Source of the DNA: Candidatus Desantisbacteria bacterium CG1_02_38_46
Lineage (GTDB): Bacteria > Desantisbacteria > UBA1551 > UBA1559
NCBI GenBank assembly: GCA_001871015.1
Contig: MNUO01000077.1
Location: 1 to 6,679 of the forward strand
DNA: 6,679 bases
Direction: 5' to 3'
Below are positions 2,964 to 6,679 of this stretch, in pieces. Within the stretch, counting starts at the first letter, position 1, and each line of letters begins with the position of its first letter. A program made the translations under genes and the position numbers. The notes below the pieces were generated by a model. That model saw only the letters and a program-made list of their open reading frames with translations, was not told the origin of the DNA and did no database searches.

Positions 2964-2981
2964 ACAGTTAATAATGATATA

Positions 2982-3000
2982 AATATTCAAATAGAATATT
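2982..3000 (+). promoter_or_regulatory. Inverted repeat in the portal leader, near the predicted mRNA 5' end
   Basis: AATATTC (2982-2988) and GAATATT (2994-3000) form a perfect seven-base inverted repeat around five bases. It begins about 12 bases after the predicted transcription start. It could be a weak 5' stem-loop protecting the mRNA, or a small operator. It is almost all A and T, so chance is a real alternative. Confidence 0.35.
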
Positions 3001-3012
3001 ATATTAAAATCT

Positions 3013-3053
3013 AAGGAGAGGGGGATTAATTATTAATCCCTCTCATAAAAAAG
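3013..3053 (+). promoter_or_regulatory. Split ribosome binding site with a bridging hairpin before the portal gene
   Basis: AAGGAG at 3013-3018 is the only strong Shine-Dalgarno before the portal ATG at 3054, but it is 35 bases away, too far to act in a linear mRNA. The bases between form a hairpin. GAGAGGG at 3016-3022 pairs with CCCTCTC at 3038-3044, then two bulged G (3023-3024), then ATTA at 3025-3028 pairs with TAAT at 3034-3037. Folding would leave AAGG about nine bases from the ATG. Phage T4 genes 25 and 38 are known cases where a hairpin brings a distant Shine-Dalgarno to the start. The stem overlaps the last bases of AAGGAG, so it could also hide the site and act as a switch. The core GGGATTAAT-T-ATTAATCCC is also a perfect DNA palindrome and could be a protein operator. 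Confidence 0.55.
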
Positions 3054-4718
3054 ATGAAAAGAGAAGAAATAGATCAATATATAATGGACATGCCTGATGA
3101 TGTCCTTTCAAAGTTTAAATTTTCTATGCCCTGGCAATATGATGCTTCTTCTGAAACAGGAACAAGAAAGGATGAAGATGGTTTTCCCATTTCTTTAGGT
3201 CCTGACAAAGAAGATCCTCAATTAACGAGAGAGTATCTTCAAAAACAATGTTGGCTTAAATTTCAAAGAAATCCTCAAGTAAATACAGCGATTACAGGAA
3301 AAATTGGTAGATTAACGGGATGGGGATATGAAACAACTTCAGGAGTTCAAGAGATTCAAGAAGAAATAGAGAACACTGAACTTGATCCAAGAAATCGACT
3401 TTATTCTTATTGGTCCAAGTATGTTGGAAGGGCTCTTATTGAAGGAGAACTTTTTCTTTGTTTAACTTGTCATCTCGATGGATTTATAGAAATTGATTTT
3501 ATTGATCCTGTTTTAATTGGTAAAGATGGAAAAGACAATACAGGAATAATTTATCATCCCACCAAAGTTACTATGCCTTTATTTTATAATGTAAATGATG
3601 AAAGGGGGAATCTAATAAGCCAAATTCCGAGCATTTATATAGCTCGGTATCCAGAATTGGCTACTTTGCCCGCTACGAAAACAAATTACAGAGATCATAA
3701 CGATTGTAGAGGATATAATATAAGTCTTCAACAAGATTCAAGAAGTCGAAAAAAGAGATATTCTTCTTTGGGGGGATATTTCCGATTTGTTATTTCATGG
3801 GATAAAGGACTTATTACTCGTAGATCTATTTCGTATTTGAGAACAGTTCTTGAATGGTTAAATCATTATGAGAATTTAAAGAAGTATGAAATAGATCATA
3901 AGAAAGCGGCGGGATCTTATTTATGGGTTTTTTCTTTTGATAATCCAAGAGATTTTAAATTGTGGTTGACTTTATCTGATGAAGAAAGAGCTAAAACAGC
4001 AATTTTTCAAAAGAAGACTCCAGGAGGAACATTGGTACTTCCTCCAGGGATGACAGTCGAAGCAAAGAATCCTAATTTGACCAGTATTAAAGAACAAGAT
4101 ACAGATCTTTTACAAATGGTTATTTCAGGATTGAATGAACCTGCTGATGTAACTACGGGAACATCTAAAGGAACTTTTGCTTCTGTTAAGGCTTCAAGGG
4201 GTCCTATGTCTGATAGGGTTTCTGATGAAATTGCTGAATTTGATCGTTTTCAGAAATATGATTTTTGGGGAAGCATTTTCTTTTTAAAGAATAAACTTAA
4301 TGGATTTCCTGAATTTTTTAAAATTAAAGAAGCAGTAGATTTTGATGATAATCAGGAACCTATTTTTAAGAAAGTGAAAAAAAGACCTGAACAGTTGATT
4401 GACATTTCTTATCCTGTTTCAGAAACAATAAACTTTGAAGGAAGAGCAAAAGGTTTGTTAGGAGTAAAACACGGACCTGTGACTGAATCTGTCGGAATCC
4501 CTTCTTCTGAAATATCAAAAAGATTGGGTATTGGTGGATATGCTCGTATGCGATTGCGAAAAGCAACTGAAGATGAAATGTATCCTGAATTGATTTATGA
4601 ACAAGGGGTTGATGCGGAAAGTATGCAAGAGACTATTGAAGGGGAACCTGGGAAGAAGAAAACTAAGAAGATAAAAAAAGAAACTAAAGGGGGATTATCG
4701 GAATGGAGAGATTTTTAA
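3054..4718 (+). CDS. Portal protein
   Basis: Probable portal, the dodecameric ring at the head vertex through which DNA is pumped by the terminase and to which the tail attaches. The 554-residue length fits. Features typical of portals are an N-terminal helical wing ending in KIGRLTGWGYETTS (83-96), the wing segment GRALIEGELFL (125-135) followed by IEIDFIDP, a long stem-like helix around YLRTVLEWLNHYENL, and the conserved-looking segment PADVTTGTSKGTFASVKASR (363-382) near the crown or tunnel loop. The C-terminus is charged, with a lysine-rich run at 534-545. The gene follows the large terminase gene, the usual order, but has its own promoter and an unusual hairpin-spaced ribosome binding site. 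The ATG at 3054 is the first in this frame after a stop at 3027. A stable hairpin lies inside the gene at 3619-3661. Function rests on pattern and position, since portals diverge strongly in sequence. Confidence 0.8.
   Translation: MKREEIDQYIMDMPDDVLSKFKFSMPWQYDASSETGTRKDEDGFPISLGPDKEDPQLTREYLQKQCWLKFQRNPQVNTAITGKIGRLTGWGYETTSGVQEIQEEIENTELDPRNRLYSYWSKYVGRALIEGELFLCLTCHLDGFIEIDFIDPVLIGKDGKDNTGIIYHPTKVTMPLFYNVNDERGNLISQIPSIYIARYPELATLPATKTNYRDHNDCRGYNISLQQDSRSRKKRYSSLGGYFRFVISWDKGLITRRSISYLRTVLEWLNHYENLKKYEIDHKKAAGSYLWVFSFDNPRDFKLWLTLSDEERAKTAIFQKKTPGGTLVLPPGMTVEAKNPNLTSIKEQDTDLLQMVISGLNEPADVTTGTSKGTFASVKASRGPMSDRVSDEIAEFDRFQKYDFWGSIFFLKNKLNGFPEFFKIKEAVDFDDNQEPIFKKVKKRPEQLIDISYPVSETINFEGRAKGLLGVKHGPVTESVGIPSSEISKRLGIGGYARMRLRKATEDEMYPELIYEQGVDAESMQETIEGEPGKKKTKKIKKETKGGLSEWRDF
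3619..3661 (+). other. Extended hairpin inside the portal gene
   Basis: CCGAGC (3627-3632) and GCTCGG (3642-3647) form a perfect six-base stem around a nine-base AT loop. Just outside, GCCAAATTC (3619-3627) can pair with GAATTGGC (3654-3661) with one bulged A, so the two stems can stack with an asymmetric internal loop (C3627 is shared and can join only one stem). The arms are GC-rich for this AT-rich gene. It lies over codons 189-203 of the portal. No T tract follows, so it is not a terminator. A role in translation pausing or mRNA stability is possible but unproven. Confidence 0.45.
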
Positions 4719-5404: not shown

Positions 5405-6679
5405 ATGGCAACTATCACATCAAATGCATCAGGAAATTGGTCAGCCGGCGCAACCTGGGTAGGAGGAATAAAGCCTGCTGATGGGGATGCTGTTGTTATT
5501 GCCGCTGGTCATAATGTTCTAATGGATGATGATTTATCAGCCTATACCGGACTTCTCGCAGTGACGATAACTGGAGGGGCAACTCCTGGAATGCTCTATT
5601 TTATGAATGGCACTTCAGGGCATCTTAAGATTAGGACAGGTTATAATCTTGTAGGAACAACAGATACGAATCGTGGCAGATTGCTTGCTAATTCTGATGG
5701 AATCTGGGGGAATACAGGGGCTTTAGCGTTTGCAAATAAAGCAATTATTGATTTGCAGGGAACATCAAAAATCGAGGCTCTAAATCTTGATATAGCCCTT
5801 TATTGCACCCATCCTGCCAACTGGTTTGTTGAGACTTACAAAACCGCATATACCTGCAATCAGGCAACAGACGTAAATGTAGATACAGACGTTTTGACGT
5901 TTGGTACTGCCCCTCCTGCGGCTGGAACTCCAGTTAGAGTAAAATCCAGTGGGACTTTACCTGGAGGATTATCGGCTGATAGAATCTATTATACTCGCAC
6001 CATCTCGGGAAACACCTGTAAACTCACCCTTCAGAAGAACGACGCAACCATTGTGGATATTACCAGCATAGGTGATGGCACACTTACGATGTATGACGGG
6101 CATACGAATACAGCGACTAAAATACTGAACGTAATTCAGGACATTACAGCAGACGCCCCCTGGACGACTGTAGCAGGACATAATAGGATTGTCCTGGCCG
6201 ATATTGCCCCTGAAGCTTATGACCAGCAAAGGGATACTCTTGCAACTATTGCTGCAGGTGCCTTGACGATAACTACCAATAACGTAGATTCTGTTCAATT
6301 CCCTTGCGCCAGAATATATCTTTCAAGTCGGAATGTATCAATTCGCTCAAATGGAACAACGAAAGATCAACCTATTGTAGATTTTACTTCAGCGGCGACT
6401 CATGGTGGAGTATTTGACTGTGAAATTGTTAATACCTATCAACCTGGCACACAGACGACATTTTATGGCTATGGCATTCTCTATGGTTCAGGGCATACCC
6501 TCTCGGGGGTAATAACTGGTTGCTATCGTGGCATTGCCTATGGTTCAGGGCATACCCTCTTGGGGGTAATAACTGGTTGCAGTTATGGCATTTTCTATGG
6601 TTCAGGGCATACCCTCTCGGGGGTAATAACTGGTTGCTATTGTGGCACTTTCTATGGTTCAGGGCATACCATCTCGGGG
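5405..6679 (+). CDS. Beta-helix surface protein, probable tail fibre or tailspike (partial, 3' end beyond window)
   Basis: An open frame of 425 codons with no stop before the window ends. AAAGG at 5391-5395 lies nine bases before the ATG. Residues 1-40 (GNWSAGATWVGG, P24, GD at 27-28, VVIAAGHNV) have the layout of the G8-like beta module that opens many phage and bacterial surface proteins. Residues about 155-230 match a small beta-barrel module common in phage tail proteins (AGTPVRVKSSGTLPGGLSA, then IYYTRTISGNTCKLTL and a GDGTLT end). From about residue 315 the chain has the spacing of a right-handed beta-helix, ending in tandem 19-residue repeats from Y360. The likely role is binding or degrading a host surface polymer, but no catalytic residues can be named. 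GC content is visibly higher than in the upstream genes (31 of 60 bases at 5881-5940 against 14 of 60 at 4261-4320), suggesting a module of different origin. It could also be a head decoration or baseplate protein. Confidence 0.75.
   Translation, partial: MATITSNASGNWSAGATWVGGIKPADGDAVVIAAGHNVLMDDDLSAYTGLLAVTITGGATPGMLYFMNGTSGHLKIRTGYNLVGTTDTNRGRLLANSDGIWGNTGALAFANKAIIDLQGTSKIEALNLDIALYCTHPANWFVETYKTAYTCNQATDVNVDTDVLTFGTAPPAAGTPVRVKSSGTLPGGLSADRIYYTRTISGNTCKLTLQKNDATIVDITSIGDGTLTMYDGHTNTATKILNVIQDITADAPWTTVAGHNRIVLADIAPEAYDQQRDTLATIAAGALTITTNNVDSVQFPCARIYLSSRNVSIRSNGTTKDQPIVDFTSAATHGGVFDCEIVNTYQPGTQTTFYGYGILYGSGHTLSGVITGCYRGIAYGSGHTLLGVITGCSYGIFYGSGHTLSGVITGCYCGTFYGSGHTISG
6482..6679 (+). repeat. 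Tandem 57-bp repeats encoding 19-residue beta-helix coils
   Basis: Three complete units (6482-6538, 6539-6595, 6596-6652) and a partial fourth (6653-6679) that runs off the window. Each begins TATGGTTCAGGGCATACC and encodes YGSGHTLSGVITGC followed by five residues: YRGIA, SYGIF and YCGTF in the three full units. The first 42 bases of the three full units are nearly identical (a single C/T change in unit 2, Ser to Leu), while the last 15 differ. The 57-base period keeps the frame, so copy number can change without breaking the protein. A degenerate earlier coil (YGYGIL, residues 354-359) precedes the array. Confidence 0.95.

Follow-up and report, generated by a model that had tools for sequence, protein, structure and literature searches.

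Genes 25 and 38 of bacteriophage T4, the cases named in a review of post-transcriptional control in this phage, are translated from split sites in which folding of the intervening RNA shortens the spacing between the Shine-Dalgarno (SD) sequence and the start codon from 27 to 11 nt and from 22 to 5 nt, respectively, and initiation is lower when the structure is destabilised (PMC3014915). An operator hairpin also lies upstream of T4 gene 43 (PMC3014915). The ribosome can take in the long hairpin of Escherichia coli thrS while leaving it folded, as crystallography supports (PMC3936740), and this hairpin is essential for autoregulation according to the title of Sacerdot et al. 1998, listed in the same source (PMC3936740).

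The window analyzed here, a stretch of 6,679 nt from contig MNUO01000077.1, has a candidate site of this kind in front of a portal protein gene, and the features on which the comparison depends are the following.

985–2919, + strand: terminase large subunit gene (PHROGs 2, 9 and 38), directly 5' of the portal gene.
2935–2963, + strand: promoter-like site TTGACC-17-TATAAT, with 11/12 consensus matches and a start expected near 2970.
2975–3006, + strand: A+T-rich upstream hairpin (RNA fold), directly 5' of the SD.
3013–3018, + strand: distal SD, AAGGAG (from sequence), placed between two hairpins.
3018–3044, + strand: probable bridging hairpin (RNA fold) with 12 bp, a 3-nt loop and −16.9 kcal/mol.
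3045–3053, + strand: A-rich spacer ATAAAAAAG, the 9 nt between the folded hairpin and the ATG.
3054–4718, + strand: portal protein gene, 554 aa, aligning from residue 1 onward in many relatives.

The leader runs ...AAAATCT AAGGAG AGGGGGATTAATTATTAATCCCTCTC ATAAAAAAG ATG, with the portal start ATG at 3054 and a gap to AAGGAG of 35 nt (3019–3053). That the sole strong SD lies 35 bases from the ATG, as an earlier note on this DNA had claimed, is confirmed by the coordinates, by an SD scorer that returned no match in the usual range before the portal ATG, and by anti-SD duplex energies of −6.6 kcal/mol for AAGGAG vs. +0.1 kcal/mol for the proximal AUAAAAAAG. The 16S rRNA 3' end found in the same genome bin (...CACCTCCTTT) is complementary to AAGGAG, in a bin that may not represent the phage host.

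The minimum-energy stem comprises 12 pairs, one of them G-U, around a UUA loop; it fills the gap between SD and ATG and in the folded form cuts the 35 nt to 9 nt, which agrees with the effective spacing of about nine bases anticipated in the earlier note. The note had drawn the hairpin at 3016–3044, and while the hairpin itself stands, this exact register does not, being possible yet weaker than the stable stem at 3018–3044 (−12.3 vs. −16.9 kcal/mol); likewise, its statement that the stem occupies the last bases of AAGGAG holds for the final G alone, with GAG taken up only in the weaker register. In fold ensembles the SD bases 3013–3017 are mostly unpaired (0.4–1.0, varying with base and fragment, with G3016 at 0.40–0.70) and G3018 is paired. 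Folding of 2970–3080, which had been suggested as a check, recovers the 12-bp stem with a z of −3.84, and none of 200 dinucleotide shuffles folds equally well. Of 20,000 dinucleotide and 20,000 mononucleotide shuffles of the 35-nt spacer by itself, 31 and 4, respectively, reach an equally good fold. The 35-mers of lowest energy anywhere in the window all fall on the portal-leader hairpin, and it is the tightest true hairpin where three inverted repeats with arms of at least 10 nt are listed in the window. Together with the upstream hairpin at 2975–3006, which has no counterpart in the shorter leaders of relatives, it would leave the SD mostly exposed between two stems.

A close resemblance is to T4 gene 38, which reads TAAGGAGAGGGGCTTCGGCCC... 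and shares with the window (3012–3023) the identical run TAAGGAGAGGGG. In both, TAAGGAG is followed directly by AGGGG, the stem uses the last SD bases, and the start lies a few nt past the stem without a nearer SD. We read the identity as convergence, because the two genes lack homology and a G-rich arm can begin directly after an SD. The T4 site differs in its 8-bp stem, UUCG loop, spacing of 22 to 5 nt and position before a tail-fibre assembly gene, whereas the portal site has 12 bp, a UUA loop, a spacing of 35 to 9 nt and a portal gene with its own promoter. T4 gene 25 likewise has a hairpin between SD and AUG and a further one upstream of these, and it is similarly lineage-restricted, occurring in close T-even phages only; its stem is of 7 bp (the T4 stems are thus 7–8 bp against 12 bp here), it is located where gene 26 meets gene 25 and not downstream of an intergenic promoter, and it has been DMS-probed and reporter-tested. 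Like the portal site, E. coli thrS places a hairpin between the two parts of the site, which in thrS the ribosome does not unfold and at the portal site would not, but it is a cellular, autoregulated gene with a long single-stranded upstream domain.

The portal open reading frame (ORF) alone gave no Pfam or PHROG match. The assignment of the product as a portal protein is nevertheless right, because its predicted structure (mean pLDDT of 69, a moderate confidence) matches the solved portals of lambda, R4C, SPP1 and T4 with a probability of 1.00, and PHROG 21 (portal protein) is matched by 14 of 36 family members; the name given to this downstream gene in the earlier note is borne out by both comparisons. 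Upstream of the portal gene, a TTGAC-like box with a −10-like partner is present in 80 of 116 distinct relatives, and among the TTGAC-like boxes in the terminase-portal gap of the family a 17-nt spacer is the commonest. With a promoter in the gap and a counterpart in most relatives, the portal gene therefore probably has its own transcript from its own sigma-70-like promoter across most of this uncultured phage family, as judged from sequence. The predicted leader has a median of 38 nt in the family vs. about 84 nt here. A second promoter-like site lies at 316–344 (TTGACC-17-TATATT), before an ORF at 372, and has TTGACCTAC in common with the portal promoter. At the other end of the window a 57-bp tandem repeat (YGSGHTLSGVITGC...) occupies 6472–6679 within the last ORF; since the window ends inside this repeat, the assembly probably broke there.

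Relatives of the portal gene place the hairpin in a narrow group. Among the best 80 portal relatives in IMG/VR it is carried by one contig only, L001, which is 99.2% identical overall and has zero differences in the leader; most of its differences (length and base changes) lie in a CTAT tetranucleotide array at 94–185. GTDB genomes contributed three distant portals, and the phylum-wide search of the window's lineage covered two genomes. Conservation of the arms, which the earlier note had asked to see among related phages, is accordingly mixed, being found in the 99%-identical L001 and not at 70–75% identity, where the leaders are shorter; with this one carrier, the arms offer no changes to compare for covariation. 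The next relatives (70–75% identity) have a terminase-portal gap of 58–95 nt vs. 134 nt here and do not contain the hairpin. Ordinary nearby SDs are present in L005, L002 and L006, and weak SD-like motifs in L003 and L004; at the chosen starts of some other relatives the scorer saw no proximal SD.

The hairpin thus appears, on comparison of these leaders, to have been gained recently and not to be the survivor of a formerly conserved element in decay, because the leaders of relatives at 70–75% identity are shorter and in most cases place an SD-like motif by the ATG. The site of L005 reads AATAGGAG-ATTAAAAA-ATG and that of L002 reads TATAGGG-ATAAA-ATG; their SD-ATG spacers are similar to ATAAAAAAG, and both sites match the two ends of the window site minus the hairpin. 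From this we infer that a palindrome was probably inserted into, or an inverted copy made within, an ordinary AAGGAG-ATAAAAAAG-ATG site.

We gauged the rarity of the layout with a scanner for an SD followed by a hairpin and a start without a nearer SD, for which two T4 segments served as the positive control and returned exactly genes 25 and 38. On 1.09 Mb of portal/terminase-family contigs the window site and its L001 copy score 28, far above the chance level, and the rest score 20 or less, making them the only two of about 5,000 starts in these contigs to score so strongly. Counted together, the hits are no more numerous than chance would give, with 4.7 expected from shuffles, and the other three, at 20 or below, are rejected as further split sites in the portal family. 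A strict-threshold scan of 1.09 Mb of other viral contigs, those of the outward scan below with its search pattern excluded, found the layout at 0 of 1,897 starts, and the layout is therefore rare.

Taken together, we consider it likely that bridging by the hairpin makes the distant SD usable for the portal start. The portal leader would be transcribed from its own promoter, and the 12-bp hairpin would fold locally in the leader RNA, drawing AAGGAG to about 9 nt from the AUG. A 30S subunit could then pair with the SD and reach the AUG without melting the stem, so that the hairpin would remain folded on the ribosome and initiation would depend on it. Since the palindrome would fold away from the ribosome, its insertion may have been tolerated. 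For bridging, the SD must be accessible, the stem must not melt and the spacer that remains must be of suitable length; the exposed SD and the spacer are both predicted at the portal site, and thrS offers a precedent by analogy for the stem staying folded. Against bridging, the arms show no covariation, L001 with its unchanged leader being the one relative that carries the hairpin; the stem is also longer than those of T4 and takes the last G of AAGGAG, and so stable a stem, if unbridged, could equally block initiation.

It is important to consider that the distal SD and the hairpin may be incidental, with the portal gene starting in an SD-less manner on the A-rich ATAAAAAAG and the hairpin being neutral, slightly harmful or a protector of the mRNA 5' end. 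Stem-loops in a 5' leader are able to stabilise mRNA, the spacer is indeed A-rich, and the relatives whose chosen starts have no scored proximal SD would fit such a start; but a stem of −17 kcal/mol only 9 nt ahead of the AUG should, if unbridged, keep the 30S subunit from loading, and the SD, stem and spacer are aligned as in T4 gene 38, an alignment whose strength is confined to this start and L001 in the family contigs. We regard this coincidence as unlikely. A function of the repeat in DNA, as an operator or a mobile repeat, or in termination of transcription seems very improbable indeed. It is a tight inverted repeat in an intergenic position, as would be expected of such elements, but it occurs as a single copy in the whole genome bin (allowing up to 3 mismatches), on which ground a mobile repeat or operator was rejected, its occurrence in IMG/VR is limited to L001, and one of its pairs is G-U, which is fine in RNA and a mismatch in DNA. 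The + strand continues into ATAAAAAAG and the element is absent from a terminator scan of both strands; lacking a T-run after the stem, it was rejected as an intrinsic terminator.

The hairpin could also be a translational operator that lowers portal synthesis, either masking the SD or serving as a protein-binding site as in thrS, and the earlier note had proposed an on/off switch controlling portal levels. The stem does contain the last G of the SD, the alternative register hides GAG, the split-site hairpin of thrS is, per the title cited above, described as essential for autoregulation (PMC3936740), and T4 gene 43 has its own upstream hairpin operator (PMC3014915). In the stable fold, however, most of the SD bases are predicted to be exposed, the relatives at 70–75% identity face the same portal-dosage problem with no counterpart of the hairpin, and Rfam gave no match to a known RNA family. 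Nothing at the site points directly to a switch: the predicted fold leaves the SD largely free of pairing, and neither an alternative fold nor a ligand or partner for the hairpin came to light. What favors control of portal dosage is the analogy with T4 and thrS, and such a switch is unlikely; an operator of either type seems quite improbable to us, and bridging remains the preferred reading of the hairpin.

The same design was then sought in other viral contigs by scanning for AAGGAGAGGGG followed by an ATG 12–40 nt on and folding the sites, a selection by pattern through which matches speak to recurrence and not to frequency. Among the matches listed, a strong hairpin in the gap is present before 10 of 37 ORFs of at least 100 aa vs. 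1.9 expected by shuffling, and before 4 of 76 ORFs shorter than 50 aa vs. 2.0 expected. Clear cases among the matches listed precede genes for a phrog_394 tail protein, a RuvC-like resolvase, a DNA polymerase and an endolysin, among others. In L174, L175, L188 and L267 the hairpin between SD and ATG has a T-run after the stem, and these elements possibly combine a terminator with a split site, in which case translation would occur only from read-through RNA; L174 was rejected as a split site, having only a near-identical relative and a terminator-like T-run after the stem. For the RuvC-like gene, a minority of 23 relatives (L351, L352, L353, L358, L363/L373 and L364/L365) have a strong stem just before the ATG, several with an SD directly 5' and with quite different arms. 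Those of L363, L364, L353 and L358, about 50 nt before the gene, have unrelated arms and are found on contigs of up to about 530 kb.

The phrog_394 case could be followed across many relatives. The tail protein of L241 was compared with 80 relatives (74–100% identical; L269–L348) that have 33 distinct leader forms, and in all 80 leaders a stop codon is followed by an SD-like run, then by a stem and, after 6–9 nt, by the ATG, the folds having energies of −18 to −23 kcal/mol; an SD-like motif follows the stem in only 1 of the 33 forms. These leaders, which lie some 50 nt before the start of the tail gene and most commonly have UUCG and GAAA loops, resemble the portal site in their lone SD, the stem directly after it and the 6–9 nt to the ATG, and they differ in being conserved in 80 of 80 relatives examined, in covarying and in standing at a capsid-tail gene junction. 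Their arms change in step (GAGGGGGG/CCCCCCTC, GAAGGGGGC/GCCCCCTTC and GTGGGGGGT/GCCCCCCAT, with further pairs TAGGGGAGGT/ACCTCCCCTA and GGGGGATAATC/GGTTATCCCCC). In a sequence-only alignment of 22 distinct leaders, and with shuffles that ignore relatedness, there are 17 double-sided changes vs. 8.5 ± 2.7 when shuffled and a covariation score of 0.240 vs. 0.181 ± 0.019, each reached in 0 of 500 shuffles that leave kinship uncorrected; sliding the partner reduces all covariation measures, with a slide of +3 nearly equal in score. A partner-swap test on hand-defined arms was discarded as circular, the arms having been picked for pairing, and was replaced by the test on the sequence-only alignment. 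The carriers are uncultured podovirus-like phages, probably marine. In more distant isolates (Pelagibacter and Methylophilales phages) this junction also contains a hairpin, but without this SD layout; there the stem may originally have acted on behalf of the capsid mRNA and been put to use in a split site only afterwards. The logic of T4 genes 25 and 38 that the earlier note had recognized at the portal start is well supported by the anatomy of the site, by the direct comparison with T4 and by this covarying case in another phage group.

The portal site thus probably joins the known split sites of the T4 gene 25/38 type and adds to them a recent origin within one family, together with the recurrence and covariation of such sites in other phages. 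Gene finders and models of translation generally expect the SD to be 5–12 nt away from the start codon and count stems in its vicinity as inhibitory, and a stem that makes an SD usable would contradict both assumptions. The covarying tail-gene family suggests that split sites can be kept by selection. It seems fairly likely that hairpin-bridged SDs are a recurring design of phage ribosome binding sites rather than a T4 curiosity, conserved and covarying before a tail gene, present before the RuvC-like gene of some large phages and freshly evolved before the portal gene, in whose family the states before and after can be compared. Because its relatives have ordinary sites, the portal locus offers a direct test of how split sites evolve, in which a palindromic insertion would be tolerable once it is folded off the path of the ribosome.
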